NCBI GenBank assembly: GCA_964017235.1
Contig: OZ024934.1
Span: 83,914,706 to 83,978,705 of the forward strand
Direction of reading: 5' to 3'
DNA length: 64,000 bases
DNA from: Sabellastarte sp. h YS-2021
Taxonomy: Eukaryota; Annelida; Polychaeta; Sabellida; Sabellidae
Each line of letters begins with the position of its first letter. The first letter of the stretch is position 1. The position numbers and the translations under genes were made by a program. The notes under the pieces are model-generated. The model ran no database searches and was not told where the DNA came from. It worked only from the letters and a program-made list of their open reading frames with translations. Positions 31,962 to 56,999 of the stretch are shown one piece after another.

Positions 31962-32520
31962 CGGGGGCGTATTTAGTGAAAGGTCTCGTACTTAGCCTAG
32001 TCTCAGGCTGAGCCACTTGCTCAAGTCTGAGTCTTTTGGCCCAGATAAGTCTTTGTCTCAATGGTTTTCACAGGAGGGGACCAAGCTTATCAAATAACCA
32101 CAGTGGTTTCCTGTGTCATGTGACCCTTTTTTGTAGTCAAGATATTCTACTAATGACACATATTATCTCTGGTCAAATGCTATTTTGCAATGAGAAACCT
32201 TGTTAACATTTAGAAACGCCCAAAGACTACTTTAGGCAGATCTTTTGTATACTTGTACCTTATTTTAAATCATTTCAAATTTTGAAGTAGAGAATGAATT
32301 ATGCAACCCATATTTGAGCCACTGTTTACAAAACTTAAGACCACTACCTACCAGTCTCAGCATTTGGGCCAGTGGCTCAGCCACTGCTGAGACTGAGACC
32401 TTTTGTGAAATCCATAAAGACTGAGCCCATGGGCTCAAGAAAAATGTTCCAATAATTTGAGACACAAGTCTCAAGTTTGAGCCTGAGACAGGGCTAAGAC
32501 CTTTCATGAAATCCGCCTCA
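31962..32520. mobile_element. Foldback element, GGTCTTAGACTTAG family, diverged copy 2
   Basis: Ends GTATTTAGTGAAAGGTCT and AAGACCTTTCATGAAAT match the family at 23003 and 43361; arms are CTGAGAC/GTCTCAG-rich here. The core CAAATAACCACAGTGGTTTC is shared with the other copies. Confidence 0.8.
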
Positions 32521-33911: not shown

Positions 33912-34167
33912 AATAAAACAAATTTATTCATTACTCTATCCATACAACAGAGATCCTTAAACATGAAGATACTAGGTTGGTGTTGGCTGCCTTATACCTA
34001 GATAGGTTTTATTTGTTTTATTTATTTCAATAATAGGAAAGAATTGTCTCTCTTTTTTTGTCAAAAATAAATAAAACAAATTTATTCATTACTCTATCCA
34101 TACAACAGAGATCCTTAAACATGAAGATACTAGGTTGGTGTTGGCTGCCTTATACCTAGATAGGTTT
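33912..34167 (+). repeat. Direct duplication of 98 bp, two copies
   Basis: The block from AATAAAACAAATTTATTC to CTAGATAGGTTT occurs at 33912-34009 and 34070-34167 with no difference that I can see. A linked block (CAATAATAGGAAAGAATTGT) lies before the second copy and also at about 33288. Confidence 0.85.
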
Positions 34168-34382
34168 GGTTTTGCTCTGCACATAGCCACAGGCCCCTGA
34201 CATGCCAAAAGTCCCAGTTCTCAGGATGATTGATTGGTGCAGTATTATTATTATTACACCTTGGGCACCACTTACTCTATTCCTGAAAATAACTTTCTCA
34301 AGAAGCCCATCATAGTATTATTTGAAACACAGGCTGCAAAGTAATGCATCTTATGGAATGCAAGCATTTCCAAAGAAACTGT

Positions 34383-34650
34383 GCCACCTCTTGTACATTT
34401 ATTTATATTTATTTGGGGTTTTACATCCCTTTCAACACTGTACAGGTCATATCACAACGGGTAGTTGGAAGGGCAGAGGAATCCAGTACATACAGTTGGT
34501 CAAGGTTCTGTACTGTAAACTGCCGACCAACGGCAAGCAACTACCAGCTTTCCCACTTGAGGTAGAGCCGTGAACCAAACCCCGGCCTCAGAGGTGGGAG
34601 GCGAGAGTGCTACCACTCTGCCACCGTGGTCCCTCGCCACCTCCTGTACA
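34383..34650 (-). mobile_element. SINE, minus strand, 15-bp target duplication
   Basis: Body 34398-34635 with full tRNA-like head and tail. GCCACCTC(T/C)TGTACA flanks it with one mismatch. Confidence 0.9.
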
Positions 34651-34944
34651 AGCCATATATCTATTCCAACCAAGTGTTCATATGATCAAATCAAACAACT
34701 CTTGTACATGCAGGAGAACAGTTGTTTATGCTTTTCAAACTGTTGCAGCCACTTTTGCAATATAAAATGTTTCCCAACTAGTATTCACTGATTTTTTCCC
34801 TTTTCACAAAGGTTGCTTTTGATCACTTGTGCAGTGTGCCAACATCAATGGCAACATGGCTATGGCACTAGTGTCATATTTTCATTTAATGCTACATTTT
34901 CCTTTTATATTTCTATGAAATACAAAGTTTCAATCAATCGAATT

Positions 34945-36240
34945 TTTACCCCACAGCCTTTACAGGCTGTGAGGGTATTGTTTTCATCCATGCATTTGGC
35001 TGGATGGCAGAAATTTATTTTAACAGGGCTGTATCATACAAACTGTAAGGTGTAGGATGCTGTTACTTGATAGAGATCTTAGCTGGGGGGTGTAGGTGTG
35101 CAGCGTCATGGTGTGACCTTTATTTGACCTCTAACCTAGCTTTAGTGACTTTGATTTTGAAAATCTCATCCGTGTTTATATCTCAGAAACCATAAGGTGT
35201 AGGATGTTGATACTTGGTTGATACATTTGATGGGGGGTGCAGCTGGGCAATGTCATGATATGACCTTGATTTGATATTTGACCTTGCCATAGTTACCTTG
35301 ACCTGTAAAATCTTGTCTGGACTGTATCTCAGAAGTAGGTAGGGACATTGAATGGGGATGTAGGTATGCTACATCATGGACTTGATATGACCTTTCACCT
35401 TACATAGTGACCTTAACCTATCAAATCTTGTCCGGGCTATATCTCTGATATCATAAGGTGTAAGAAGTTGATATTTGGTGTTGACATTGGTTGGGGGGTA
35501 TAGGTGTGAACCGTCATGTTGTCACCTTGATTTGTCATTTGACCTTGCCATAGTTACATTGACCTGTAAAATCTTGTCTGGGCTCTATTTGGGAAACTGT
35601 AAGGTGTAGTATGTTGATATTTGGTAGGGACATTGAATGGGGGGGGGGGGGGGGTGTTGGTGTGCAATGTCATGGCGAGACCTTGATTTGACCTTTGACC
35701 TTGCGGTAGTGACCTTGATCTTAAAATCTTGTCTAGGCTATATATCTAAAACCTTAATGTGTGGAAGGTAGATATGTTCTAGGGTTATGGATGTGGGCAT
35801 GTAGGTGTGCCACATTATGGTGTGACTTTGGTGTAATTTTTGACATAATTTTGCCAAAACATTTTCTGCTGCCATTTTTAAGAAATATTTCTGTCACAAA
35901 GAATTGGATTGCTGGCTGCTGCAACTGATATGATAAAAGTTTTTACCTTATTGTACTATCTCCTTTGACAGCTATACTTCAATTAAGAAATTTAACAGCT
36001 TCATAACTTTTAGTCTACGGTACTTATTAATGCTGTCATCTTGCTATTGAATGGCCTTTTTTGATACTTTGTCTTTACATACATATTTGCCCTCTTTTAT
36101 GTTATTTTCTTTTGCACCTTTTCATAACTTGCACTGTCTATTCTGAATGTTTCCGGTCCTTTATACTCTTTAAAATCTTCTATATTTCACAGTATTCAAC
36201 GCTTTTTCCTCAGACTGGTGTACTGAAATCTCTAATGCTA
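34945..36240 (+). repeat. Hairpin-headed repeat with tandem 150-190 bp units, copy 1
   Basis: It starts with CCCCACAGCC...GGCTGTGAGGG, a head hairpin. Several units follow with AAGGTGTAGGATGTTGATAC, then TCATGGTGTGACC and GACCTTTGACCT. The right end is CTCTAATGCTATTTTTA. A run of about 18 G lies near 35637. Confidence 0.75.
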
Positions 36241-36275
36241 TTTTTATTTTGATGAAATATAAAATTTTTTCCAAT

Positions 36276-36755
36276 AGAATTTTTGCCCCCGCAGCCATAA
36301 AGGCCATGTAGGCATTGTTATCACCAATGGCATCTGGCTGGGCGGATGGGTAAACAGGCTGTTTGGGCTATATCTCATAAACTGTAAAGTGCAGGATGTT
36401 GATACTTGATTGGGGCATTGAGTGGGGGTGGAGGTGTGCAATGTCATGGTGCATCTTTGGTTTGACTGCTAACCTTGCTGTAGTGACTTTGAGTTTGAAC
36501 ATCTTCCGGGCTATATCTTGAACACTGTAATGTGTAAGATGTTTTGTACTTGGTAGAGACATTGGCTTGGGGTATGCAAGTGTGCAATGTCATGGTGTGA
36601 CCTTGATTCGACCTTTGACCTTGCTGTAGTGGCATTGACTTTAAAAATCTTGTCCTGGCTACATCTCAAAAACCGGAAGGTGTAGGAATTTGATAGTATC
36701 TTATATAGTATCTGGTAGGGCCATTGGTTGGAGAGTGTGAAAAGACATTTATATG
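36276..36755 (+). repeat. Hairpin-headed tandem-unit repeat, truncated copy 2
   Basis: Same layout as the element just to the left, starting CCCCGCAGCC...GGCCATGTAGG, with about two and a half units and no typical right end. Confidence 0.7.
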
Positions 36756-36820
36756 ACCTTGGCTTATATATTTATCCTATCATAAACATGTATATGGTTT
36801 GCTGCAAGTGATGATTATTA

Positions 36821-37278
36821 GAGAGGCTTAGTGATGCGTTTGACCGCTACCTAACGTAAAATAATTTCCGTAAGAGATACGTTAAGTTTGAAGAGGATAC
36901 GTTTGTCAAATAAGGGTTTAGCAATACGTCCATATGAACGAGTGCAGGTCAACGTAGTTTCTTTGATGTGATACAAAAGAAGCATCATTTGCAAACAGAC
37001 CTCTGGTATTCATATGGGAAAATATAGTGAACTGAAACCAGACCAAAACATGGTGTACATATTTATCTGCCTATGGGGTTGTGTCATATTTATTTGTAGT
37101 GTGTAGTTTTTAAATAAAATAGATAGGGGTGAGTGAACGTAAGGGAGGCACCCTTTACGTATAAAACGTAACCTAATAAACTGCAAAAACGCTAAAAGTC
37201 ACCTGATACACTTCTACTGTTGACGTAAATAAGTTTGGGTTTACGTTTTCATAACCAAAACGTAACACTAAACCTCTC
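36821..37278. mobile_element. TA-flanked MITE of 458 bp
   Basis: Inverted ends GAGAGG(C/T)TTAGTG flanked by TA (36819-20 and 37279-80). The interior is dotted with AACGTAA and TTACGTT. Confidence 0.8.
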
Positions 37279-37920
37279 TATTATTAGAACTTTTACCTTA
37301 TGTATATTTTTAAAAAGTCCCTACTTTAGCCTTTTTAAATTCTCAATTGATGTTCAAGTTATCACGTCAACAAGGAAAAATGTTTTTGTCAATGTAAACC
37401 TTGCATCAGTAAACCCAAAAATACACAACAAAATGCTGAAGAAGATTTCTGTAGATTTATTTCCATCAAAGGGTGCTTTCTGAAAGTTTAGTTTGGCCAC
37501 AGTATATACAAAAGCTAAAGACAACCTTAAAAATGTCACTTAATCAAAGATTACTATTTGATTGAGAAGAACAAGTAAAATTGTTTTATTGGAGTATATA
37601 TATTTGTGCTTATTTACTGTTACACAATCCAAAAAAATCTAAGGAATGATACAATGAACACCAAGCCTGTGATGCTTACTAGTCACAAAAGATGGAGTAC
37701 TTTTATATATTCTGACATAAATTTTTTTGTAACAAAATAATCTAAAAAACTTTATACACTACAATATTTCATATAAGATCCATTGGTGCCATGAAAATGC
37801 TGAATACAATTTCCCAAAAGTATTGATTGACCAAAAAGTTTTTCCTGGGAGTGGAGGAAAACAGTGTATACTAGTTGGTCAAGAGTCTGTACTGAATCCA
37901 TCAGATACCAGCCTATAGAA
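37279..37920. other. Intergenic, with a possible SINE remnant
   Basis: Mostly unassigned AT-rich sequence. Around 37849-37915 CAGTGTATACTAGTTGGTCA and TCTGTACTG resemble the middle of the local SINE in reverse orientation. Confidence 0.35.
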
Positions 37921-37924
37921 TTAA

Positions 37925-38200
37925 ATATTGTATCAGACAACTACATAAATGTTGTATCCGACCACTTTATGTATGCCGTATCTGAGCATTTTTAAAAGTT
38001 GTATCTAATCAGTGTATGAGTGTTGCATCTGGTCACTTTCTGAAAGTTGTGCCTGATCATTTGTTGAATGTTGTATCTGATCATTTCATGAACGTTTCAT
38101 CGTATAATTTCATGAATGTTATATCTGACTACTTAGTGAATCAGGCCACTCCATGAAGATTGTCTCTGTTCACTTTAGAACGGTTATATTTGACCATTCT
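37925..38200 (+). repeat. Degenerate tandem repeat, about 32-bp unit
   Basis: Around eight imperfect units of the form GTTGTATCTGATCATTTTATGAAT. Confidence 0.65.
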
Positions 38201-38914
38201 GACCACTGAATGAAGGTTTTCTCTTCAATTATAAGTTTTGTAACTGAATTGTAATTGGCTCAAATTTCCATTAAAGCTGGGTTTGTCCAGCCTGTTTGTC
38301 TATTCAATAGAGAAAATAAAACGAATGTATCTGGATAAGTTTGATTTTGTATAAGTCAGTCACTTGACAACTAATGGACATCGCATATTCCACAGTGCTG
38401 TACACAAGTGTGTGCTCTAACTTTGTGAGGATCAACTTACAGGATAAGTACTCAATGACTCAGATGTAATGTCAGAAAGAGAATCATGATGTTGAGTTCG
38501 ATGGGAGGGGCTAAAGCACTGGATCCTAGTTGGTCAAGGCGTGCACCAGACACTACCAGTCACTCATCACTTTTACCTTTCCTATTTCACAACAGTACTA
38601 TTATTTCATCAGTTTGGTTTTACACATTGTTTGTTAGTATTGGGTAATTAGCAATACCCTAGTTCATCCCATCAGAAATACACACACAAAGGTTTTACAC
38701 AAATGATATTACCATGAAAAGAAACATGTTGAATAGATTTTCTACAATTGTACTGTAACATTTGGTATATTTGTAAAACTGACACTGAAAGGAAGACTCC
38801 TGCTTTTCACATGTGACAATTTTTCAAATGGAGGAAATGAGGCTCCAGTGATGACAGTGTTCTGTATTGCAAGCTGTGCAGTATTGTTAGCCTCCAGGGT
38901 AAAACCAAAGTAGC

Positions 38915-39590
38915 TGGTGCTACTCAACCTTTCAGAGGCCTTTGATAAGCTTAACCACAATCTCCTAAGGAGAATGGACTCTAGGTTTGGTATTATTGGG
39001 TCCTGCTAAGCATGGTTCAAAGATTACCTCTCAGATGTCAGATTGATTAGTTAGGTCTCTGAACCAAAGGCTTTGGAGTTCCCCCAGGGTCAGTGCTTGG
39101 GCGATATCACAAGACGCTAAGGTATCGTGCATCATTCCTATGCTGATGACACACATCTGTATGTTACTCTCAATCCAAGGCAGGACTTCAGTACACTGCT
39201 GGAGTCACTAGGCCTGTGCATGGAAGATATCTGCATGTTGATGCGCTTAACCTTGTTAAAACCTAATGATTACCAGACTGAGGTCTCTGTAATTTTGGTT
39301 CCAATAACTCTCTCAGTCACCTGAGCTCAATGTTCATTTAAGTCAGTAATGCCTCAGTAACCTCAAGCTAATTGTTACAAATTTGGGGTACATTTTTACA
39401 GCAGATTGAATATGAATGACTTCATAATAAGAAAATATCAGTCTACCACTCTCCACATTCGTTCACTTTACAGGACTCAAGAATATTTGATCACAGTAGC
39501 AATAAAATCTCTTATCCATGCAATTGTTGCATCGCATTTGGACTATGTCAGTAACCTGATGTGTACAAGAAGCAAAGATGAACAGACTTC
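38915..39590 (+). mobile_element. LINE reverse transcriptase relic, left part
   Basis: Non-LTR reverse transcriptase motifs occur in order across shifting frames: LSEAFDKLNHNLL, the PQG box, the catalytic YADD box (39139-39150; YADDTHLYVT), and TLHIRSLYR...SLIHAIVASHLDY followed by MNRLQ. Stops and frameshifts make it inactive. The right part resumes at about 41505 after nested insertions. Confidence 0.85.
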
Positions 39591-39790
39591 AGGGGACGGT
39601 TTCACAAAAGGACTTAGCCTGGACTTAGGCTTAAAGGTTTTTGTCTTAAAATAAGGCTAAGTTTATGGTCTTAGACTTATAGAGTTTAACAAAGCTGCTA
39701 AGTCTAAGCTTTGGCTTAGTCTACCCGGAAGTGGACTTAACTTTTGTAAATAAAGACTTAAATATGGCTGCCATATATTTTTCTCGTTTC
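39591..39790. mobile_element. Partial foldback element, CTTAG-rich
   Basis: GGTTTCACAAAAGGACTTAG and CTTAGGCTTAAAGG resemble one arm of the GGTCTTAGACTTAG family. It begins exactly where the LINE frame breaks off. Confidence 0.6.
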
Positions 39791-39882
39791 AAAATTTCAA
39801 ATGCCTGAAAATAAGAATAAATATACAGAACACCTCCGTAAATTAGTCCTTGAACATATTTATGTGGTTATAAGGCTTTTCA

Positions 39883-40825
39883 TTTTTTTACCCCACAGCC
39901 CTTAAGGGCTGTTGGGGTATTGTTTTCACCCATGATGTCCGGATGGGCGGGCGGGTGGCGGGAAAAAGTTTGTCCGGGCTGTATCTCAGAAACCGTGAGG
40001 TGTAGGAAGTTGATACTTGGTAGGGACATTGGTTAGGGTGTGTAGGTGTGCAACGTCATGGTCTGACCTTGATTTGACCTTGCCATAGTGACCTTGAGTT
40101 TGAAAATCTTGTCCGGGCTATATCTAGGAAACCGTAAGGTGTAGGAAGTTGATACTTGGTAGGGACATTGGTTAGGGGGTGTAGGTGTGCAGCGTCATGA
40201 TCTGACCTTGATTTGACCTATGACCCTGCCGTAGTGACCTTTACCTATAAAATCTTGTCTGGGCTATATCTCGGAAACAGTAAGGTCTAGGAAGTTGATA
40301 CTTGGTAGGAACGTTGGTTTGGGGGTGTAGGTGTGCAGCATCATGGTGTGACCTTGATTTGACATTTGACCTTGTCGTAGTGACCTTGACCTTTAAAATC
40401 TTGTTGCACCTTTGGGTCTGTCTTTTGATGCAGATTAAGCACCGTTAAAGTCATATTAGAATTCATTAAGAATTTTACTTTTACAACGTCCCATTGTAAC
40501 AGATGGAATTTCATCAAGTGAGCCACAGATTATGCTCCAACACCACACATAAGCATTCATTGAATTTATTGCCACTTCTGTATGCATGGTAATATTTAAA
40601 ACATCTAAACCATAATTCGGCCATGCCGGATGTAAAGAGTACATGCATTATCTTTCTGTTTGACATTATTTTCTCTATTTAAACATTGTTTGGACCTTTA
40701 TATAACTGACAGTGCTCTGAAAGTATCCTGAACTTTGTACTGATACAGTACTTCTATATCACATGGTGTTAAAAATATTTCCCTAGGCTGTGGGGTACGA
40801 GCATCTCTGATGCTATTTTTTCAAA
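39883..40825 (+). repeat. Hairpin-headed tandem-unit repeat, copy 3
   Basis: The head is CCCCACAGCCCTTAAGGGCTGTTGGGG in two arms. Three units of about 150-160 bp follow, with GTAGGAAGTTGATACTTGGT in each. The right end is TCTGATGCTATTTTT, as in copy 1. Confidence 0.8.
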
Positions 40826-40869
40826 GATAAAATGAGTTACAGTTGGGAAAATATCACACATGTTTGATT

Positions 40870-41480
40870 TTTTATAGAGACCACAACAGATCCAGACAGA
40901 TTCGATCAGACAGTCTGGGACTCTACACTTTTAGGAAACCGATTCCCAAAATACCTTAATCGGGAGCCTTAGTCATGTGGTGGAACAGGGGCAATATATT
41001 TCATGACTGTAACCGATCCACTTTTGCCCCTTCTCACAAATTCCCCAGTCTCAGGCTTCCTGAGGCCTCCTCAGACCCAAATTTACACAATCCTATGTTG
41101 TCTGAGGCATCTTGCCACTCTTAACCCCAAGACTCATAGTCCCAGGAGGTCTGCACTAAGTCTCAGACCTTAACAGAAATCGCCAATATCTGTCTTAGGA
41201 AATCTGTTATTAGTCCCAGGAGGCCTGAGGGAGCTTTAGACCAGTCTGAGACCCAGTCGGTACATCCCTTAAAGGATCGGGGTTAAAGCCGATCACATAC
41301 ATAGCTTAATTGCCTCATAGTTGGGGAAAGATCATGACTTGTCTGAGCTTCCTGAGGACAATCTATGCTTGATCCCACACCAGGATCAAGAATCCATTTT
41401 CCTAGCCATTTTTTCATATTTTTTTCACAGACTCTCACGGATTAAGGGTGCCAGGACCAATCAGGGATTAAGCCTTTGGT
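40870..41480. other. Unassigned insertion between LINE halves
   Basis: Contains inverted GGCTTCCTGAGGCCTCCT-like and CCAGGAGGCCTGAGG segments (41050-41230), suggesting another foldback element, but I cannot place its ends. Confidence 0.4.
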
Positions 41481-41504
41481 GCTGCAGGGGGATAAACTAG
41501 ACTC

Positions 41505-41812
41505 ATAGATTTGACCATATTTCAGCTATTCTCGAAGAAATTCATTGGCTTCCCATTTCTAAGAGAGTTTAGTTTAAAATTCTGGTCTACACACTTAACT
41601 GTTACACATACTACTCCATCACACCCAGTAAAAATTAAGTTAAAAACTCAGATCATATGATGACAACCCTTCCTGAGGAACAGACTGCTACCATTCATCA
41701 GGAACTATGATTCTTTGTTGCATTTTAAGAAGCATCTCAAGGCTTATCTTTTAAAATTAGTTTGAAATAGACTTTTTACATAATAATAATAATAATAATA
41801 ATGTATGATTAT
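41505..41812 (+). mobile_element. LINE relic, right part and 3' end
   Basis: HRFDHISAILEEIHWLPISK and FKILVYTLNC are the C-terminal motifs usually following the reverse transcriptase in such LINEs. The sequence then runs to an (AAT)n tail at 41783-41804. It continues the frame interrupted at 39590. Confidence 0.8.
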
Positions 41813-41870
41813 TAGAGTCCAGAGGAGGCTAATGAGATGTAGTGATTAAAACAATATATAACAACAATAT

Positions 41871-41876
41871 TTTATT
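41871..41876 (-). terminator. Poly(A) signal of the secreted Tyr/Cys-rich gene
   Basis: AATAAA on the minus strand, about 115 nt after the TAG stop at 41993-41991. Confidence 0.7.
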
Positions 41877-41990
41877 GCAGATAGATGCTACACCAAAACA
41901 ACCAAAAGAAAACATTTATGCAAATAATCTTCTTATTATTTCTCTCTCAGCAATCAATTTGTTGCTCCATTCTGTTTTCATATCCTGCTA

Positions 41991-44900
41991 CTAGACTTCA
42001 ATGAAGGGTGGCAGGGGTTCTATTGGGCCTATTGGTGGTACTGGGGGAGAGGGAGGGCTAGGTGCTGGGGTTGGCGGGGCTGGCGTGGGGTTCACACAGG
42101 TGTATCTGTAGCAGCAACAGGTGGTGTAGTAGTAGCCATTGTAGTAACAAGGAGGGTAGTAGGGATAGCCATAAGGGATGTGAATGTGGTGGGCACACAC
42201 GTAGGATATTGTATACGTAGGGCATGTCGGGATGTAGTAATCGCACAAGTGATACAGGACTGAGAGGTAGTAACAGTAGAAGAGGCCACTTGCTCGCTTC
42301 TCTCTCACTTCACCCAGCTACAAGAAAATACTTATTAACAGCTTGATTCGGTAAAAGAAATAACCGATTTGGATCACTAATACAAAGACAATGCATTTAT
42401 GAGTTGCATATTAACTAGTTTGAGTATATTCATATTATCGCCCATTCTAAAATGGAAGGCTGTAGGTGCGTCTTTTGTGCAACTCGTGATAGGTAAAGTA
42501 TGAAAGAGTGTGCCTTACTAGGCGTATTTCACAACCGTAATCCGTCGAATCTAGATTCAGATTTGGATTCTTTGGATTAGCTAGATTTGTAAAATACAAT
42601 TTTCTGTAGATCTCAATCCAAATTTAAAACATAACATTAACAAACATAAATATCATATATTATTATAAATTATGATGCAGTAATATAATATTATAATATC
42701 ACAGTATAATAAAAATTTGCCAAATGTTAAAATTTCCTGCCACATGTTGCCGCCATTATTTTTCGAAGAATTATGGGTAATCCGAGCAATCTGAATCCAT
42801 TGATCTACCTCGAGAGGTAGGACAACGGATTTATAATCCGGATTCAGATTCAAGTCACAACACAAGCGAATCTGTTGATCTGACGAATCTAGATTCGACG
42901 GATTACGGTTGTGAAATACATCTACTGGGAAAATAATGCACACTTTACCAGACCCCAAACTTAAAGCTCACACACTTTTGGATACATCCCCCTGAAATAC
43001 CACACTTTTATGGAATTATTTTAAAAACTCTTGATAAACCAATAAACCTAAATCTCAATGATACTTGATTACTGGTTATTTATATATTGGCTTTTATATA
43101 TTGACCCATGTGTTAATATTGGTGTCTGGTATATCTTCTGTTCTGTAGAATTTCTACTCTAAATGGATAGTAGGAATAAAAGTGACAAATAATTTGTTTA
43201 GAACACTTTTTGGGCAAATGAACTGGATAATTCAATTGATATACTAGAATTAAAAACACAATTGCTATGTCATCCTATTGAAGTATTCTTATATTTCAGA
43301 TTTTTTTTTCAATTTAGAGCATTTATCTCATTGTTCTGGCAAAAACCATTTGACTGTTTCAGGGCTGGTATTCACGAAGGGTCTTAGACTTAGCCAGGTC
43401 TTAGGCTTAAATCCAGTCTTTAAGTTGAGACTTTTGTCTCAGCTAAGTTTTGTCTTAAAACCATATTCACAAAGGGTGACTTAGTTAAGTCCAAGATTAT
43501 CAAATAACCACAGTGGTTTTCTGTGTCATGTGACCTTTCTTTTCTATTCAAACTATACTATTGGTGACATATATCCTTCATTTAATGCATTTTATCTAAC
43601 GAAAAGTGCTGTTTTAAAATGGAAAACCTTGTTACCACATATAAACTTCCCAAAGACTGCTTTAGTGAGGTGTTCTGTATAATTATACTTTATTTACAGC
43701 CATTTGAAATTTTGAAGTGGAGAAAAGTTTATGGCGGCCATATTTAAGTCCTCTTTACAAAATTTAAGCCCACTACTAACCAGTCTTAAAGTTGAGCCCT
43801 TGGCTAAGCCTAAGACCAGTCTTAAATTCTTTGTGAATACCACTAAGCCTAAGACAAAAGTCTTAGCAGGTTTTGGGCAGAAACGTGAGACAAAAGTCTC
43901 AACTTTAAGCCTAAGCCCTGGCTAAGACCTTTCGTGAATGTGGGTCCAGGGCCCGTACTCACTAAAGGTCTTAGACATAGCCAGGTCTTAGGCTTAAATC
44001 CAGTCTTAAAGTTAAGACTTTTGTCTCAGCTAAGTTTTGTCTTAAAACTGTATTCACAAAAGGTGACTTAGCTAAGTCCAAGATTATCAAATAACCACAG
44101 TGGTTTTCTGTGTCATGTGACCTTTTTTCCTATTCAAACTATACTATTGGTGACATATATCCTTCATTTAATATATTTTATCTAAGGAAAAGTGCTGTTT
44201 TGAAATGGAAAACCTTGTTACCACATATAAACTTCCAAAGAATGCTTTAGTGAGATGTTCTGTATAATTATACATTATTTACAGCCCTTTCAAATTTTGA
44301 AGTGGAGAAAAGTTTATGGCGGCCATATTTAAGTCCTCTTTAGAAAATTTAAGCCCACTACTAACCAGTCTTAAAGTTTAGCCCTTGGCTAAGCCTAAGA
44401 CCAGTCTTAAATTCTTTGTAAATACCACTAAGCCTAAGACAAAAATCTTTGCAGGTTTTGGGCAGAAACTTGAGACAAAAGTCTCATCTTTAAGCCTAAG
44501 CCCTGGCTAAGACCTTTCGTGAATACGGGCCCTGGTGACTTCTGAAGATCATGCTGTTGCCCCAGAAATTGCTCAGGTAAGACATCACGGAGCTGACAGG
44601 TTAAAAACCAATGTGTCGACATGGGCAAGACATATAACCTTCCAAACTCTGATCACTGACAGTATGATGGTTGTATCAGTTCAGGTTAAGCCAATGAAGG
44701 CATTATTATTGGATTACAATTATTAGAAGAAGCTCATCACTGAAAGTAGTAAATGTATATATTTGAACTAATCAATTGGAGTTACTCGGATCTGCAAGAT
44801 TTCAATGATACATATTTGGTGAAAATTTTTATTCAAATTTAATGTATGCATGTGAAAAAATGTTAAAGCACACTTGTGATATCATTCTGTATTGTTAAAA

Positions 44901-45173
44901 GTGTGCATTATTTTAGGTATTATTATTTTCCCAGTAAGGCACACTTTTTCATACTTTACCTATCGCGTAATAATCAAAGAAAGTGACCACACGGTAACAC
45001 AACAGCTCACACATAAATAAAAAATTAAGGATGATAATAATTTAATGGTTAAGAGTTTCTAGATATATTGCATAACCCACCTGATTGTTTTCTTCATCCA
45101 GAACTTGTTTCTGCAAGGGTCCTGCCTCACACAGCGCAGTCAGCAACAGACACAGTGTACACAGCTTAAGCAT
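41991..45173 (-). CDS. Secreted Tyr/Cys-rich prepropeptide with Pro-rich tail (2 exons: 45173-45081, 42317-41991)
   Basis: I do not recognise the family. Exon 1 encodes 31 residues starting MLKLCTLCLLLTALCEA, a clear signal peptide. Exon 2 (108 codons) follows a TTGTAG acceptor; both junctions are phase 0 and the donor is GTGGGT. Residues 36-39 are REKR, a furin-type site. Cleavage there would leave a 100-residue mature chain with 19 Tyr and 9 Cys in its first 66 residues, including CCC, and 16 Pro in the last 33. A TATA box, short 5' UTR and AATAAA complete the gene. Tyr/Cys/Pro richness suggests a cross-linked extracellular material (shell, periostracum, byssus or mucus) or a defence peptide. 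This is inference only. The 2,763-bp intron is full of nested MITEs. Confidence 0.82.
42521..42922. mobile_element. TA-flanked MITE of 402 bp inside another repeat
   Basis: Inverted ends G(G/A)(C/T)GTATTTCACAACCG, with CGAATCTAGATTCG motifs inside, flanked by TA (or TAC). It interrupts a sequence whose uninterrupted version lies in reverse at about 44905-44965. Confidence 0.85.
43361..43947. mobile_element. Foldback element, GGTCTTAGACTTAG family, copy 3
   Basis: Complete copy with ends GTATTCACGAAGGGTCTTAG and CTAAGACCTTTCGTGAAT, arms of about 150 bp and the shared ACCACAGTGG core. Confidence 0.9.
43948..44534. mobile_element. Foldback element, GGTCTTAGACTTAG family, copy 4 in tandem
   Basis: Directly abuts copy 3 in the same orientation and is closely similar over its length. 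It ends GACCTTTCGTGAATACGGGC. Confidence 0.9.
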
Positions 45174-45214
45174 CTTGTCAGATTCAGTGTATTGCCGTCT
45201 GCAAGCTAACAGTG

Positions 45215-45222
45215 TATTTATA
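45215..45222 (-). promoter_or_regulatory. TATA box of the secreted Tyr/Cys-rich gene
   Basis: TATAAATA on the minus strand, 42-49 bp upstream of the ATG. A start site about 30 bp downstream (near 45188) would give a 5' UTR of roughly 15 nt. Confidence 0.65.
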
Positions 45223-45537
45223 GAGAGAACTTCCGAAACTTGGTACTTATTAACAGAGACACTGAAAACATTTATAGCTGAATGCGTATTGTTTCTACTC
45301 TTTATTTTTGTTTCAATGTCAGACCTTCAAACACAATACTTTCTTTTGTTTTCCATTCTTCTGCGGGATAAAAAACCCAAAGATGTGGCCAACTGGAAAT
45401 TGAACAAGGTCACACTTTGGTACAGTATTTAATTAATTAAGCAGTAGTTAAATTCACCAAATGCCTTGTAAATCTGAATGGTGTGTAATGAATAAGTTTT
45501 CCAAAAATAATATCAATAAAATTTAGTTAATAGCCTT

Positions 45538-46066
45538 CCCAGATAGCATGCTGACGTCGGGCCAATGTCGGGCCAACGTCGGCACATCCGTCGGCCCGAC
45601 GATGGCTGCCGACGTCGGCCCAACGGCTTTTTGACCGGCGGCCCAACGTTGGCCCAACGTCGGCAAGCCACCGAAAAAAATTACTCATTGTATAGCATCA
45701 ACCAATCAAATTGTCCACAAATAGCTTTTTCAGTGTGAATTTATAATGAGAATGTTATTTTTATTTCTAAAATTATGAAATAGTTGGCTAAAATTTGTGG
45801 GCTCACTGAAATATGATTTTTAGATATACCATTATAAATAATTTTTTACTAAGTTTCACAAAATCCCCTATTATTGCCCACCGCCATCTTTAATAAAAAT
45901 CCACCGTTGGCCCAACGTCGGCCCAATGTCGGCAAAATGTATAGACATATAACCAGAGTTGGGGTTGGCAGGCAGCCGTCGGCCCAACGTCGGCCCAACG
46001 TCGGCAAAATCTGCCGACCTTGCGACCAACAGCCAACGTCGGTCCGACGGCGGCATGCTATCTGGG
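45538..46066. mobile_element. GC-rich foldback element of 529 bp (CCCAGATAGCATGC ends)
   Basis: Perfect 14-bp inverted ends CCCAGATAGCATGC. Both flanks of the AT-rich centre carry tandem ACGTCGGCCCAACG-like units, so both strands have open frames rich in VGPTLG or RRPNVGK. These are repeat by-products and not genes. GC content and CpG density are far above the surroundings. Confidence 0.9.
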
Positions 46067-46069
46067 TTG

Positions 46070-46973
46070 GTATAGGCTCCAGTCCAGCTGGTCACAGGTT
46101 ATGGGAGCAATTAGAGGCCTGTCCATATCTGTCCCAGGTTGCTTAATGTGATATAAAAGCTAAACTTACAAGGTTTCATAAGATCTTATTGATTGTGTAT
46201 GTGACAATCTCCAAGTTATAAAACAACACACGATGGTGGCCAGTTTGTGAGAAATGATTTCAATGGGCAAAGGGCGAGTGAGTGTAAGATTTAATCACTG
46301 GATTTTCTCAGTTGTGGTCATGAGTTTAATTCCACTGCTTACTCACATTCACTGATATATGGCTGTTCTGATATGGCGTTAATAAAACATATATTCTATT
46401 AACCAAACCTAGCACGGTATAATATCAACAGATGTAATGGAACCAAGCCTTTCAAGGCATCTGTGTTTACACGTTCAGTCCGCCTCAGTATAATATTAAT
46501 ATATAATATGTTATAGTAATATAATAACCAAACTTCCTGAATGGCATTTGAAAAAATATATGAAAACTGAAGATTGCAATACTATAGGGGTGCATTAGCA
46601 CGAGTATTATATTGTGAATATTAATGAATGAAGGATACATTTCTAGTACATGTCTATTAAGAGATGTCTTAGTTTTATTAGCCACCATTTTATATGAATT
46701 AATAATCAGTGAAAAAAAACTAAATGATGTAAAGAATGATTGAAAAAATGCTTGTATATAAGGGCACAAGTAAATATGAAAACTTTAATATTTAACTTGA
46801 GATTTTTCAATAGATTGTAATGCAAAAAATCTCATTTTTTTAATGAGAAGCAGAAACGTTAATAAAAACTTTCTAGTAAAATATATTTGTAAATGACATA
46901 GTTTCAAAAGTATTAACGAAAAATTTGATGAATTTGTAACACAAAATTTTGCATAGCAATATAGTAAGTCACA
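46070..46973. other. Intergenic, no recognised feature
   Basis: AT-rich. On the minus strand, ATTAAA at 46844-46839 and AATAAA at 46679-46674 could serve the terminal exon at 46974-47079. Confidence 0.4.
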
Positions 46974-47079
46974 CTACAGACGACATTGTCTACGTTGCCT
47001 CTTTCCCTGCTTCACCTGCCAATACACACGGGGGGGATTTGTAATTTCCGCCTCCACTATTTTCAGTGGCTTTGGACTC
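46974..47079 (-). CDS. Probable terminal coding exon of an unidentified gene
   Basis: On the minus strand a TTTTTTTTCTTATAG acceptor precedes one leftover base and 34 codons plus TAG. The peptide begins SPKPLKIVEAEITNPP, continues RVYWQVKQG, and ends in a basic, Cys-containing tail (KRQRRQCRL). Codon content and GC contrast with the flanks. I found no matching upstream exon: the donor at 47707 would create a stop at the junction. The family is unknown. It could be the end of a small secreted or basic protein whose 5' exons lie further right. Confidence 0.4.
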
Positions 47080-47084
47080 CTATA

Positions 47085-48045
47085 AGAAAAAAAAACACAA
47101 TAAAGAAATAAAAATAAAAAGATACATCCTGCAGAGTGATATAAGTGGTGCAGAAAAAAAATGTCCTACACTGTGTATCCCCTTATGGGCTAATGTCGAA
47201 TGTCGAAGGGTCATAGTCACCAAAGGTCTTTGCTGTTTTGTGGTTAGTCTGGTTCCCGACCCTACTCTGCAATATACGGTCAGGTATCACCCACCATCTT
47301 GGGTTCTAGGCTTACGTAGTTACACCTAGCAATGCTCAAGAAGAAATTAAATTAAAAATATTTCCAGTTAACACATTTGGTTCACATTTTGACACAATAT
47401 CTCCCTTTTACTGTGTAATGATATGACATAATAATTCAACGACATTTGTGATAAACAAAAAATGTGCATCAGTTTAAGTGTTGTCGATCCTCTATTATCG
47501 CCCAAAACCATGTATTTGCTTCTAATGATTATTGTCTTCTCAAAATATTTTAAAGTTTAATTGGCATTATTTGATGTTATAAGTCCAATAATACATAGTA
47601 AAAATATTTTGAATGTATACAAAATTCATATAAATAATTAAAATAATCATCGAGATTTCCCGATACATGACAGTGATGCATTCTTTTGGCTATTCAGCAC
47701 TGGTACTTACTAGTTCACATCCCGGAAAAGAACTGTTTTATGGGAGTTGAATACCGCCTCAAGAAGCACAAATGAATGCAGCATTAATAGACAAAGGGCA
47801 TCGTAGGCGATACCAGTCCCTTTATTGTTAAAGGTTGGCTGGTTCCCCGTCTACATATCTTGGAGCAAACAGATTGGGGAATATACTGAACAGTTGGGTA
47901 CAGACACTGGGTTGTTGTTTATTTGATTTTGTTCACATGTTGGAGCATAAATCACAGTGCAGATACTCTGAACATCTAGATACAGACATTTTGCATTAGT
48001 GGAGGCTGAACATATCATTGGACACATTGCTGGAAAGAGTGGACA
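47085..48045. other. Intergenic, no recognised feature
   Basis: AT-rich with a few less AT-rich patches (47190-47330, 47740-47830). No gene is supported. Confidence 0.4.
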
Positions 48046-48291
48046 AGCTGTTAGTTCATTTATTTATTTGGAGTTTAACATCCCTTTCGACACTGTATAT
48101 ATCACGATGGCTAGTTTTATAGGCAGAGGAAACCATTACATACAGTTGGTCATCGTTCTGTACTGTAACTGTCAACCATCGTTAAGCAACTACCAGATTT
48201 CCCACGTAGGGTCTGGGTTTTGAACCGCAGTCCTCAGAGGTGGGAGGCAAGTCTGTAACCACTGTGTCACTGTGGCCCCCAGCTGTTAGTT
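48046..48291 (-). mobile_element. SINE, minus strand, 11-bp target duplication
   Basis: Diverged copy (48057-48280) flanked by AGCTGTTAGTT on both sides. Confidence 0.88.
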
Positions 48292-49340
48292 AGACGGATA
48301 TGGTAGTGGTCAGGTCAGATTGATTTCATTAATGTATTTTGTATGAACTATTTAAAGTATTTCAGTTGACCGTAAATATTATTTTAAATGTTAAATAAAT
48401 TTGTTAAGTAGAACGATTTGAGATATAACATTTATCCTATTTTGATGAAAAAAAACACAAGTTAATTGGTCTCAATATTTTAACAGGTCAAAAATCTGTA
48501 ACCTTGATAGAACAGAATGGGTTTGGTCGCCAATCAATAAATTAATTTAAAATGACACACTGAGAAATAGAGTTTTATTGTTAAAACAATGCTTCAAGAG
48601 ACATAACTCACAGTTTATGATATACTGTACAGTTTATGATATACTGTAAAGTAGGAACTTTAGCCAGAAATAAATCGGCAAAACTAATATATTTAAAAAC
48701 TTTTACTGTAAATTAATTCATCATCTAGATCACTAGTTAAACGATCTCAATATAATACCAAGTGAAAAGATCCACATGTTTGGTTTAGTGGTTTTCAGTT
48801 AAAATCTAGCTCTTGACAATTTTTGCTAGAAAGACTGAAGAACCTAATGTTTAGAACTGTACCACTGGATCTACTTATTAATGTGTATTTTGACTGGATT
48901 CTAGAGCTTCCAGTTGCTGTGGTTTTTGTCATTTCACCACTTGAATCACATTCGTTTTAATTGTTTTTCAACCTATCTCAGGCCTTTTCAACTCAAGTTG
49001 ACATTTTCACAAATACTCTGAATTATGGACCCTCTCTCTGATACAGTGATATCAGTGTCTGACTCACTGCTTTCTCTCATAATTCTGCGTATATCTTCAA
49101 TTGGCAATCTTCATTGTCAAACCATCAAACTGAATTACATCAGAGGTTTGAAACTGGAAAAGAATATCTACATTACAGAAACGTCTTAGGTTCTCAGTGA
49201 CCTTGTGGGTTAGCAAGTTTGACATCAAATCACAGGCTGTCACCTCTGTGTGGGTTCAACTCCCACAAGTAACAATGCTGAGGGTTAGTCCCCGTATGAC
49301 TCTGGCTATTAAACCGACGTAAAACCCCAACTTTGACTTG
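48292..49340. other. Intergenic with SINE fragment at its end
   Basis: Mostly unassigned. At 49250-49345 (GGGTTCAACTCCCACAAG, then CGACGTAAAACCCCAACTTT) lies a SINE-like fragment in plus orientation. Confidence 0.45.
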
Positions 49341-49400
49341 CACTAAAGCTCCAATAGCGACACTATAACATTGTAAGGGAGTCATTGAATTGACTGATAT

Positions 49401-50380
49401 CAGGGGCGTAGGAAGCAATTTTTGGTTGGGGGGGGGGGGGGGGGCGAGAACTATATTGCACCGACTCGACCTCCATATCCCCAGACAGGCCATCCCTCAC
49501 GCCAAAGGCATTCACTGGGTATTTTTAGCACACATTTTGTGTGATTCACAGTTATTAATTATCCCAATTAACTAAATCTTTTGTTAGGATGTTATGATGT
49601 CTAACAATTTTGGTTAATTTTACAGAATGTATTGCATGTAGGCAATATGCAAATTCAAATGGTCCAATTAAAATATTTTTAAGTTCCTTTACCAAAGGAA
49701 ATCTTTGTGACGACAGTGTGACTGACATTAATCCTATGTTTCCCTGACCTTGTCCTGGTATAGAAATACATATAGTCACCTCTGCATTTGAATATTTCTA
49801 ATGTCTTGACTACATGTTTCCAGAACTTGTGACCTTTCCTTCAAGCGCTGAGCCGATACAAGATCTATTTTTAGCAAGGTTAATCCCCAAACTGAGGGGG
49901 ATATATTGACTGGACCGGCTAGGTCATATTAACACAGAGCAAAGAAAGAAGAGTTTTCTTGGAAAAATCTTGTCATCTGACAAATTGCTGTGCTAAACTG
50001 TTGCTCTGTGTGAATTTGAAACTACATGTCTAAATTCTAAATAATTAGCAATATGGTAAATTAAATGTAGAAGATTACTATATGTATGATTTGAGTATGC
50101 ACAAGTGAAACGTTTCACAAAATTTTACAAATCCCATGACAGGTTACCTGAAAAATAATATTCCTTTTACAAATCATAAAAATAAATATTTTATAGTTCA
50201 AATGGTAGCTTACACAATGGTACATGTGAGCTGTGAATAGGGTAAAAGTGTAATTTGACCACATATTATTGAGCTACCTATAAAAATTTACATAAACTTC
50301 AAAATTGGAGTTTAGTTCTTTTGCAAAAAGTTGGGGGGCGAAAAGATATACCCGCTGCCCCCCCAGTTCCTACGCCTATG
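49401..50380. mobile_element. Transposon of 980 bp with GGGGCGTAGGAA ends and TGATAT target duplication
   Basis: Ends CA(GG/TA)GGCGTAGGAA are inverted. Just inside lie a G run (left) and a C-rich stretch (right). TGATAT flanks both sides (49395-49400, 50381-50386). No intact transposase is visible. Confidence 0.8.
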
Positions 50381-50385
50381 TGATA

Positions 50386-50640
50386 TTATGATATTGTATT
50401 GAGGGCATGGTGCTCACTGACACTATAACATTGTACTGAAGTCATGAAATTTACTGACACTGTAATATCATACTGAAGTCATGAAATTCACAACATCGTG
50501 CTGAAGTCATGAAGTTCATTCAAAATCTAACACTGTACTGAGGACATGGCATTCACTGACATTGTAACATTATACTGAAACCATGAAATTAACTGACACT
50601 AATATTGTACGGAATTCAGGGAATTTCATTCAACAACAAC
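50386..50640 (+). repeat. Tandem repeat, about 40-bp unit
   Basis: Imperfect units of the form CTGACACTATAACATTGTAC then TGAAGTCATGAAATT. One further unit lies at 49360-49400, left of the inserted transposon. Confidence 0.75.
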
Positions 50641-51350
50641 ATTTTAAAACCATAACCATGATCATTGACAGGGATTTGATTTCAAATGATGAGATATGCG
50701 CTGATACTTACAAATAGTTGCCTTTTACTGGTGCATCACTGAATAATGTATTGTTACGGTGCAAAGCCACTTATCCAGAGAATCAGAAAGTGTGGATTAC
50801 AACACTGGGGCAAATCCATCACAACATGAAGAGGAATAGCAAACTGCAGGACGTGTAAAGACAGGTATGGACATTATCCTTGCACAAGTTTTGTTAAAAA
50901 CAACTTTTGGACGTAGAACAGAGTATGGTGAATAATTAAAGGGATTCATAACAACTATGAAAATAGCAAACGAAAAGAAATAAAAAGAAGGAACAGCCCA
51001 AGAAAAGAAGACACTGTTTGGGGATTCACTAAAGGAATTCTGGGAGGATACCAAAAGTCACCTAAAGAATAATTATAATGATGCAGCTAAATATCTCTTT
51101 AAGACGCCCATGTACTGACAATTTTAAATGGTGAGTCACTGAATGCCAACACCATGGCAATCCCACAGCTTTGTCATGATGGAGGTAACAAGGCTGAAAA
51201 GTCTTTTGGTCTACATGTGTGCAGCTGCACAACCATCAGAGACACGAGTAGTGCACTAGAATTTATGAAAGTCTGGCGACCCAAAGAAATTCCAACTCAG
51301 ACACATCTCGATCTCAGGCTGTGACTATCAGCATGACTACACCAGGTTCT
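50641..51350. other. Unassigned, probably part of the Harbinger element
   Basis: Less AT-rich than bulk. It flanks the transposase relic, but I can place no ends. Confidence 0.3.
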
Positions 51351-51359
51351 TGCTGCATG

Positions 51360-52195
51360 GTGGTTTGCAGGACCCGAAATTTGCTGGTCAAAATCCCAAA
51401 AGGTTTCTTCACAACCCTTCTCCTGCACGCCTCAGCCAGTAGTTAAATAATCCCTCATTGATATCCAGGCTTCTCCGGGAGTAGGATTTCATTAGCCAGG
51501 TTCATAGGGGGAAAGTATTGTCATCAACAAAGAGGTACTCAGCTTGGGGCACGTGGTCAAAGAGTGATTCTGCTGGAGGAGATCCAATTGTGCTATCCTC
51601 TATCTTTTGCCTTAAAGCACTGTACAAGAAAATCTCGCTGTCAGAACTGGATCCATAGGAGGAGATATCAAAACATATAGACTTATAGTCCACATCCACC
51701 AGGCCAAACATAACAAGTGAGGGGAATCCCTTGTAATGAAGAAGAGACTCCTCCCTTTCAGGAACATCTGATAGGGATGTGTTTCCTTTGTATGACACCA
51801 AGAGCATGGGGAAGGTACCATCTCTCCCGGAATCCCCGCTTGGTCCCCAACCAGTCATCAGGGCAGGTAGGACAACCTCATCACGATAGTATCTGATTAT
51901 GGCATCACACACCTAAGGGACAAAGTGGTTAATGGTTGACCTCCCCACCCTAAAGGTAAAGTGTAGGGATGCATAGATCTCTCCTGTGGCAAGATGTCTC
52001 AATCTTATAGCTAATTTCAGGCATGGGCTGAGCAGCTCCCTGAGAAAGGTTGTCTGGCTCTGGATGTCTGGTGTGAATATCCCAGGAGACATCTGCATGA
52101 AATTGATGAAAGCAAACTGTTTGTAGAGCTCTGCAAGGCGATTATGTTATTGAACCTGGTCCCCACATCTTCTTAGCCACTGCCTGACTCAAGTT
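51360..52195 (-). pseudogene. PIF/Harbinger transposase (HARBI1-like) relic
   Basis: Reading right to left on the minus strand: RQWLRRCGDQVQ, LYKQFAFINFMQMSP, RLRHLATGEIYASLHFTFR then VGRSTINHFVP, an in-frame TAG, VCDAIIRYYRDEVV, then after a frameshift RKHIPIRCS, HYKGFPSLVMFGLVDVDYK, FDISSYGSSSDSEIF, and YLFVDDNTFPL. The order matches DDE_Tnp_4 transposases. The usual first catalytic Asp (in the DGKH motif) reads Q-R-K-H here. Stops and shifts also affect the end (LFNYWL, FGILTSKFRVLQ). Inactive. Confidence 0.85.
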
Positions 52196-52576
52196 ACTGG
52201 GGTCCAACTCGTTCTCTTCTGTGGATTCTTCATCTGAACCTCAAAATCAAGTCAACAAAATCCATCACCCCCTTAACAGTTGGAGAAGTATAACCATGAT
52301 GTATGGCCCTTAAGTTATTACTTGATCCATGTTGCTCAAAGTCCAAATGGTCAATGAATTTGACCTGTCCAGTGACTGCTATCTATAGGAATCCAGGGTG
52401 GATATGAAGGAAATGAGCAAAACCACTAGGGATATGTCATCAAGCAATCTTTTCAATGCATTGTATACCTAATTTGTTTTATTGTATACCCCATCGGGAC
52501 TATCATAAACCTGATTGGGCCTGATGTATTCCTATCATAGATATTGTATAGCAATCGTATACATTTTTGCAAGGTG

Positions 52577-52832
52577 AAAAGAAATTGATTTGTTTATTTG
52601 GGGTTTTACGTCGCTTTCAACACTGTAAAGGTCATATCACGACGGGTAGTTGGAAGGGCAGAGGAAACCAGTACATATAGTTCGCTAGGGTTCTGTACTG
52701 TAAACTGCCGACCAACAGCAAGCAACTACCAGCTTTCCCACTTACGGCCATGACGGGGATCGAACCCCGGCCGCAGAAGGGGGGAGGCGAGAGTGTTACC
52801 ACTCTGCCACCGTGGCCCCAAAAAGAAATTGA
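52577..52832 (-). mobile_element. Well-preserved SINE, minus strand, 12-bp target duplication
   Basis: Body 52589-52820 with intact box A and box B of the tRNA-like head. AAAAGAAATTGA flanks both sides. With 6381-6615 it is the best family reference here. Confidence 0.92.
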
Positions 52833-54900
52833 ACAGTCCAGTAAACAGAAAGCCAGTATCAATTTCTAAACTCTGATGGACAGATGCATAGTTTAGTTTG
52901 GGTAGGGGGTTTCTTCAAAATCAGACCAATATTGATTTTGAATGCTTGCTTGTGTGTACGGCTCCCTTACAGCAGTTTTGTAATAGAAAGGCTTCCTAAG
53001 GATCAAGTATTGTATTTGGAAAAGTTTGTTTCATTGAAGAGAAAATACTTTGAATTAGTGCATCTGTAAAACTCCTTACAATTCATTTGCACATGGAATT
53101 ATAAGTTTAAAGACGTCTGTGTAGAAATAGATTGAAAAACTAACAATAAAAAACATAGAACAAAGACAGATCTCATTTCTTGGAAGTACACTTTGAAGAA
53201 GGAGCCATTCTGTATATCTATCCCCCTTCAAACCCCAGCTTGTAGACTTTAGGACAGCTTGTCAGATGGCATCACAGGTTTTCAAAACACTTTTAAAAGG
53301 TAGCCCTGAAAGCAAAACACATGATCAGTTGTGCCAAATCTCCCCAAATCTATCCTATGCAAATGAGAATTCCACCGAATGCATCTTACCATGGTAAAAA
53401 ATGGACATAACGTGGTCAAACCACAACCAAAGGTGGAAGAGCCTGTTTGTTTGTAGCCAGTCACCCAAACACAGAAAGGTCTGGCCTGGTTGTCTGTTCA
53501 GGTGTGAGGTTTTTATAATATTCCTGTACACATGCATATCATTGGGTCTAGCTGGTCCACTCTGCCTGTGTCTCAAAAAGTAAATTCTTTCTACCATTTT
53601 TCTTTGCTTTCGTTTGTTCTCTTCCAATTTTACCCTTAGCTTTCCAAAACGTTTAAGTGACACCAATAGTTCTCTTTTGGCGTCAAACCCTTAGTTAATT
53701 TGACCTTATAATGCAAGGATGATTATAAGCTCACAAGATACCCCAAAGCCTTCCTAGTAACATGCCAGTCCAAAATTAGAATTTCATTTATATTCATCCC
53801 ACAAGTTTCCATGAGTTCAGTACTGTTGTAGACTTGCTCCAAGTCTGTGTATTTGTATCCACCAGTAACCTGAATAGTTAAATTTAGATTAGAAATTTAA
53901 GGAGTTTATTATACCACAAACATTCTGGAGTAAGGTGGGTAGTCAATAAAAAAAAAAAAATTTTGCCAGGGCTGACTGTTTCTTCAAATACAGTAACTAT
54001 ATATTTCACAAAAGACAAAACGACTTGGTGAAAGTCTAGTACTGTTGTTGTAATTGACCAGCTACATCTGTAGCTGAATATATGAACATTCCATCTAACG
54101 AGAATCTGGGTTGATTGAAAACACATCTTTAGACCCTTCACACCAACTACCCAGGATTACTGTGCCAGAATATCCCTTGACTCTCACTTGTTGTCAATTC
54201 TGTGGTTACAATTTAGTGCACTGAATCCCCCAACCAGACTTGCGGAGACGATAATGTTTTTGCAAAACAACATTTGATTAGATTAAATCTGTTTTCTTGC
54301 AAGTTGGGTGTTTGGTGACTCATGCTTAAAGGAAGGAGTTTGATATACAAGTTCTTTACCTCACATTATCTAAGAAATTACAAATCTGTCTGTGTGGTGC
54401 AGCTTGATCAGTTCCTGACTGATCACTGAAGTTAAACAGTATTTGGCTGGGTAACCGTTTGGGTTCTTGGCCAGATACATAATAACTCAATTCTAATTCT
54501 AATTGGACTTTTATAGCACTTGATCTCCCCAAACAAGAGGACTCTAAGGCGCAACAAAACAAAAGCAGTCATCAAAATTTCTGTGTCCAGGGACTCAAAT
54601 GATCACTTAAATTGCAGTCCCATTACAATATAGCCCAAATTAGGTACTTGGCATGATGTTGAATCAATCAATCAATCAGTCAATCAATCAATCAGCAAGG
54701 GGGGATTTAGTTGTCAAATTCTGCAGATTCAAAGCTAAGTTAGTATGGTCATCGCAAAGACAAACAGTGACCTTGTCAAGGTCACATGCTAGAAACTCAT
54801 TCCATAATGCTGTAGAGGTCTAGTATCCTAGTGACAGGCACGTTTGGCATCTAATGACACGCTATCGCCTCTATATAGCTTCAGTCCTAACAAATGACAA
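52833..54900. other. Intergenic, no recognised gene
   Basis: Contains an (AATC)n microsatellite at 54660-54696. The minus-strand open frame 53355-53666 (103 codons) starts with a basic stretch (KLEENKRKQRKMVERIYF), but nothing supports it as a gene. Confidence 0.35.
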
Positions 54901-54925
54901 AGCTGATGACCTATTCAAATGTGAC

Positions 54926-54965
54926 CCTGGCTGTTGAAAGGGACATAAAACCCCAACGTTGCTCT
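54926..54965 (+). repeat. SINE tail fragment
   Basis: TGTGACCCTGGCTGTTGAAA followed by GGGACATAAAACCCCAAC matches the shared SINE tail. Confidence 0.5.
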
Positions 54966-55102
54966 GTACTGATCTAATCCATAAACAAATACATTAAAAC
55001 ATATGACTGGCAATTTTATATACATGGTTAGTATTTGTAAGATTGCCATAACAGCTTTTAAAATCTAAAGATTTCAAAAAAAAAAGATTTTAAAGTCAAA
55101 GG

Positions 55103-55245: not shown

Positions 55246-55249
55246 AACA

Positions 55250-56030: not shown

Positions 56031-56034
56031 TTTG

Positions 56035-56960: not shown

Positions 56961-56999
56961 ATCTTTTCTATCAGTGCTCCACAGTTCTAAGCAGACTCT

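Follow-up and report, generated by a model that had tools for sequence, protein, structure and literature searches.

We identify here a predicted small two-exon gene for a secreted protein, in what appears to be an animal-like genome, on the minus strand of a 64,000-nucleotide stretch of DNA (the window), and from its sequence features this is very probably a real gene. Our best reading, which we hold tentatively and at somewhat below even chance, is that it is a working eukaryotic gene encoding a small secreted structural protein, a scaffold that would be hardened by tyrosine oxidation together with thiol chemistry. The product would most likely be a component from which a hardened or adhesive secretion is built.

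Gene model and predicted precursor

As read from the sequence with recomputed coordinates, exon 1 and exon 2 splice in frame on the minus strand to encode a precursor of 139 amino acids, with the following features.

45215 to 45222, minus strand: TATA box TATAAATA, starting at 45222, a putative promoter element
45081 to 45173, minus strand: coding part of exon 1, 31 codons (MLKLCTLCLLLTALCEAGPLQKQVLDEENNQ), with the signal-like peptide MLKLCTLCLLLTALCEA and the start of the acidic propeptide
42318 to 45080, minus strand: intron, GT...AG, phase 0, 2763 bp, filled with nested repeats
42485 to 42522 and 44930 to 44967, in the intron: outer 38-bp inverted repeat, 92% complementary, 2407 bp apart
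42519 to 42924, in the intron: inner palindromic element
41991 to 42317, minus strand: coding part of exon 2, 108 codons plus a TAG stop ending at 41991
42294 to 42317, minus strand: end of the propeptide, LGEVREKR, with the furin-type site R-E-K-R, where cleavage is predicted from the consensus
42096 to 42293, minus strand: mature residues 1-66, the Tyr/Cys block, with 19 Tyr, 9 Cys, an HHIH cluster, CCC and YYY
41994 to 42095, minus strand: mature residues 67-100, the Pro tail ending PPFIEV, with 16 Pro in the last 33 residues
41871 to 41876, minus strand: polyadenylation signal AATAAA, starting at 41876, weak evidence when taken alone

The exon 1 donor reads CAG/GTGGGT and the junction with exon 2 is in phase 0, while the exon 2 acceptor, TTTTCTTGTAG, stands directly before 42317 and has a weak tract with pyrimidines at 9 of 15 positions. 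Counted from its last base to the A of the start codon (45173), TATAAATA stands 42 positions upstream, and this octamer is rare, occurring 8 times on the minus strand of the 64 kb. At the other end of the gene, AATAAA begins 115 positions past the end of the stop codon; the hexamer occurs 88 times on the minus strand of the window, so that its presence near the gene says little by itself.

The N-terminus of the precursor is signal-like, with one Lys followed by a Leu/Cys-rich core, and hydropathy taken over 19 residues peaks, for the precursor, at residues 2-20 (1.62). Signal cleavage is predicted near A17/G18 (CEA/GP), and an acidic propeptide of about 22 residues (about residues 18-39) separates the signal-like peptide from the mature chain. 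The propeptide ends with REKR at residues 36-39. Furin-type proteases recognize the consensus R-X-[KR]-R, and two basic residues stand side by side at one place only in the 139, the KR at 38-39. The mature chain (42293-41994, 100 amino acids, 11.4 kDa) lies wholly on one exon and contains 9% Cys and 19% Tyr, the Tyr content reaching 29% within the Tyr/Cys block. It has a pI of 6.0 and a charge of -2.5 at pH 7.4, with one Arg and no Lys, and its best 19-residue hydropathy is only 0.84, at precursor residues 42-60 at the start of the Tyr/Cys block. There is no repeated module in the chain, and the motifs YxxC, YxC, YY and CC are no commoner than in shuffles of its own residues. An AlphaFold2 model of the exon-2 product, made from the single sequence without an alignment, has a mean pLDDT of 52.9 and a pTM of 0.20, with pLDDT below 50 over residues 1-72; this is compatible with a non-globular chain but does not establish one. 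The initial annotation had described this gene by its coordinates, TATA box, REKR site, 100-residue mature chain, CCC and YYY runs and counts of Tyr, Cys and Pro, and every one of these was verified on the sequence.

Gene or chance open stretch

The alternative, that this is not a working gene and that the repeat-rich DNA holds here an open stretch, fortuitous or decayed, with only the look of one, is unlikely in our judgement, although several results speak for it. An open frame alone is weak evidence here because the window holds 26 stop-to-stop ORFs of at least 100 amino acids, and one of them (111 amino acids) runs antisense to exon 2, an observation that favours the alternative. We searched both strands mechanically for models consisting of a signal-like ORF, a donor, an acceptor and an open exon of at least 90 codons, by rules that were written with the gene model already in view, and the real window yielded the model at 45173-41991 only. 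Any such model appeared in 152 of 1000 local-composition shuffles, which again lends something to the chance reading when a furin site is not demanded; with a furin site near the junction the number fell to 4 of 1000, which argues against it. Under a looser acceptor rule the corresponding numbers were 229 and 6 of 1000. An acceptor rule of 10 pyrimidines in 15 (200 shuffles run) gave zero models in the real window, and it missed the gene because the acceptor of the gene has 9 in 15; this weak tract is itself a point on the side of chance.

The positional composition of the coding sequence gives a similar picture. The period-3 asymmetry of the Tyr/Cys part was reached in none of 5000 shuffles, that of the Pro tail in 30 of 5000 and that of exon 1 in 58 of 5000. 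In contrast, exon 2 taken whole is not clearly period-3 (309 of 5000), a result on the side of the alternative. The positional biases of the Tyr/Cys part and the Pro tail differ, and they probably cancel each other in the whole-exon score. The base composition of the window, with a mean GC of 0.352, was also compared along its length. In windows of 324 bp, a width picked to fit the exon 2 coding length, the GC maximum of 0.528 is common to 8 starts from 41994 on. At widths of 300 and 400 bp, however, exon 2 ties with a repeat near 45.9 kb, and at 200 and 250 bp that repeat is higher, so that the window has two GC peaks, and exon 2 is only one of them. Such sharing of the peak with a repeat counts in favour of the alternative. 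The 60-bp bins adjoining exon 2 have a GC of 0.25-0.33, rising again to 0.45 near 42440-42499. The content of Tyr plus Cys reaches 23 per 50 residues in the gene; of the 6623 overlapping stop-free windows of that length, the next best at a separate location has 12.

Taken together, the shuffles, the positional composition and the GC disfavour the chance reading. Every signal of the gene is in line and without defect, and the TATA octamer is a rare one, both of which also argue against a chance or decayed stretch.

Search for relatives and the genomic surroundings

The initial annotation had known no family with this layout and had put forward an HMM search of the 139-residue translation as a check. 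Carried out with Pfam-A and NCBIfam, this search returned zero families at E values up to 10, in libraries that are not built for animal orphan proteins, and Pfam searches with the mature chain, with either part of it and with exon 1 likewise returned zero families up to 10, a range in which the filters of HMMER discard most matches above about 0.1. No match was found among PDB sequences at E values up to 10. Pattern searches gave 6 matches in IMG/VR and 51 in GTDB genomes, none of which was confirmed by tblastn, and six peptide strings of the protein had no match in the literature searched. As Pfam, NCBIfam, PDB sequences, IMG/VR and GTDB yielded no homologue, no sign of selection was obtained. 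Within the window, tblastn with the precursor detected only weak matches beyond the gene, the best at 19902-20006 with an E value of 0.002 without composition correction. This best match contains a stop and a gap; a paralogue was considered, and the weak matches were read as chance. No other 50-residue stop-free stretch of the window comes near the Tyr plus Cys content of the gene. The gene is therefore best described as a probable orphan secreted gene with an unusual layout that joins a Tyr/Cys block to a Pro tail, its orphan status being set by non-animal or domain libraries. Invertebrates have orphan secreted genes in numbers, and their secretions draw on such genes.

The intron owes most of its length to repeats. 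Within it are two adjacent direct copies of about 585 bp, 93-95% alike over sub-blocks, and only 113 and 167 intron bases lie outside the outer inverted pair, suggesting that the intron was probably once much shorter. The 585-bp element has relatives elsewhere in the window, one at 23000-23577 with an identity of about 93-95% and one at 31978-32510 with about 68-69%. Upstream of the gene, at about 45850-46100, the other GC peak consists of a repeat of high GC content, built of units like GCCGACGTTGGG. Units of 146-147 bp make up tandem arrays at 39970-40404, 35381-35644 and 35046-35313; the consensus of the first two contains TTGTCCGGGCTATATCTCGGAAACC, and the third looks related elsewhere in its unit. 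Two further arrays, at 58033-59301 and 59671-60293, share a similar unit of about 154 bp in 8.5 and 4.1 copies. Two repeat strings of the window searched in IMG/VR and six in the literature searched gave no match, and Rfam at gathering score gave none over the window.

The neighbourhood is rich in repeats and holds dead copies, which also speaks for the reading that this is not a working gene. By Pfam, there is no other intact gene within 34-64 kb. Six-frame Pfam searches of 34001-48999 at E values up to 0.01 found nothing, and those of 49001-63999 at up to 0.01 and 0.1 found only a stretch like TCTP (translationally controlled tumour protein) and a remnant of a DDE transposase. The TCTP match (50741-51049, plus strand, Pfam E value 7.5e-6, 26.8 bits against a cut-off of 24.3) contains 4 stops in 103 codons and had no phmmer match among PDB sequences at E values up to 0.01; it is probably a decayed copy. 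The transposase remnant (51505-51912 and nearby, minus strand) matches DDE_Tnp_4 at an E value of 0.0006, below the Pfam cut-off, and we take it to be Harbinger-like. In the region 1-34000, where 7 of the 26 ORFs of the window were scanned, one weak match was detected (PH_32, E value 0.03, below the cut-off).

Candidate functions and comparison with known systems

We infer secretion, cleavage, oxidation, cross-linking and tissue from the composition of the product and the anatomy of the gene. On the preferred reading, the signal peptide would direct the chain into the secretory path, and a furin-type protease would cut at REKR and take off the acidic propeptide, leaving a 100-residue, nearly uncharged chain. 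Tyrosines of the released chain could then be oxidised by a tyrosinase or a peroxidase to DOPA-quinone or dityrosine, while cysteines could form disulfides or cysteinyl-DOPA bonds and the HHIH cluster might bind metal. As nine Cys is an odd number, at least one of them cannot pair inside the chain and would be available to a partner molecule or for redox chemistry. The Pro tail would stay unfolded and extended, a spacer that bridges the distance between partners and helps the chain to remain in solution.

Several observations count for this cross-linking scaffold. The spliced model is in frame with all the signals of a gene, few shuffles hold a comparable model, the period-3 and GC signs of coding are present, and the Tyr plus Cys composition is singular within the window. 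There are also points against it. No repeated module and no motif above shuffles was found in the chain, and many cross-linking proteins are repetitive. Lys and Gly are few, and in many DOPA proteins these residues are abundant. The nine Cys could form a compact disulfide fold instead, and the window has a second GC peak besides that of the exon. The initial annotation had considered such a composition suited to oxidative cross-linking in shell, periostracum, byssus or mucus; the composition does fit cross-linking of this kind, and the proposal is an inference from it. Excerpted accounts of mussel systems provide precedents for this chemistry: in byssal proteins, Cys together with DOPA serves both redox and cross-linking (PMC7018715, PMC13208468), and in one mussel 13 of 18 tyrosinases are foot-specific, a finding linked there to Tyr-rich byssal proteins (PMC5549309).

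The main rival is that the product is a soluble, disulfide-folded secreted peptide, activated by furin-type cleavage and acting as a signal, in defence or in a secretory gland, in which Tyr would supply an aromatic core and surface and the Pro tail a stalk. We regard it as possible though unlikely. It would suit the order of signal, propeptide and mature chain with a single basic site and the mature chain on one exon, as well as 9 Cys in 66 residues. However, the number of Cys is odd and includes a CCC run, and the 29% Tyr of the block far exceeds that of ordinary folds. Neither Pfam, NCBIfam nor PDB sequences gave a match at E values up to 10, and the chain is nearly uncharged, which is not typical of a cationic antimicrobial peptide. 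A Pro-rich cationic antimicrobial peptide is unlikely, the chain being without net positive charge (one Arg, no Lys, charge -2.5). Nor is this a usual precursor of several peptide hormones, in which several dibasic or furin-type sites would be present; the only one is KR at 38-39. Both points also count for the preferred scaffold.

A further proposal, to which we give slightly less credence than to the folded peptide, is that the scaffold is the founding member of a new family of latent, protease-triggered glues or scleroproteins, in which a furin-released Tyr/Cys block for redox and cross-linking is joined to a Pro-rich spacer. Within a single segment of 66 residues, such a protein would hold both a reductant, its thiols, and an oxidisable cross-linker, its Tyr residues, perhaps together with a metal site formed by His. 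If the gene is real and its product does cross-link, this would be a natural material protein of very small length (100 residues), easy to make and to test, in which the chemistries of thiol, phenol and imidazole are joined to a Pro spacer and to a protease switch that the precursor itself carries. If the gene is real, it is a further example of the orphan secreted genes in invertebrate secretions; if it encodes merely a lineage-specific secreted peptide, it is ordinary.

It is considerably less likely that the protein acts as a thiol reductant like mussel foot protein 6; its free Cys would then keep the DOPA of partner proteins reduced, with Tyr as an electron relay. In its favour, Mfp6-1 of Mytilus coruscus has, in the excerpted description, 101 mature residues, 11.0% Cys, about 16.5% Tyr and a mass of 12.04 kDa, which are close to the 100 residues, 9%, 19% and 11.4 kDa found here (PMC13208468). 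In contrast, the pI is 9.04 in Mfp6-1 and 6.0 here, Mfp6-1 is described there as a signal peptide and a mature chain only, whereas in the present precursor a propeptide ending in REKR intervenes, and the excerpt mentions no Pro tail for Mfp6-1 (PMC13208468).

Least probable by far is a Shisa/CYYR1-like membrane protein with a Cys/Tyr-rich outer part and a Pro-rich inner tail. In that family a Cys/Tyr-rich part is followed by a membrane span and a Pro-rich tail, and the order of the two parts here agrees with it; the C-terminal FIEV, which we take to be a possible PDZ ligand, could also suit a PDZ domain. However, block and tail are contiguous in exon 2, the top hydropathy of the mature chain leaves no membrane span between them, and there is no Pfam match, so that such an identity is contradicted by the missing span.

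Among known systems, the scaffold that we favour most resembles mussel foot protein 6, as both are small secreted chains of about 100 mature residues without a known domain, in which Cys and Tyr are outstanding; the two are similar, not equal, as far as the excerpt goes (PMC13208468). The chain may work like Mfp6 by analogy. Membership of that family was nevertheless rejected, in a comparison by description and not by alignment, as the chain is not basic and does not pass directly from signal peptide to mature chain in the way described for Mfp6-1 (PMC13208468). The earlier statement that no family has this layout thus holds for the libraries searched, none of them built for animal orphans, and the layout is new in part only, because Mfp6-1 is a Cys/Tyr-rich secreted protein of like mature length in its partial description (PMC13208468). 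The byssal cuticle proteins mfp-16 to mfp-19 also resemble the present protein, by description only and in an excerpted account, in being rich in Cys, putatively secreted and part of a coating that is cross-linked (PMC7018715). Myticalins, in the portion of their report drawn on here, are likewise secreted peptides of small size, made by mussels, which are marine invertebrates, and the term proline-rich is used 12 times there; they differ in being linear and cationic, whereas the present chain is slightly acidic with nine Cys (PMC5577615). Orphans of the shell matrix offer a broader parallel. In the excerpts of these reports, Lottia has a Glycine and tyrosine-rich protein, Uncharacterized shell protein 4 (12% Tyr) and Proline-rich proteins 1-3 (PMC4094399), and Haliotis has Has-tsfgr1 (ORF of 114 amino acids) and Has-vm2 (20 Pro-rich motifs) (PMC2034539). 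Like the present protein, they are secreted, without a clear family and dominated by one or two residues; unlike it, they are described in these excerpts as Gly/Tyr or Pro proteins without a Tyr/Cys block joined to a Pro tail (PMC4094399, PMC2034539).
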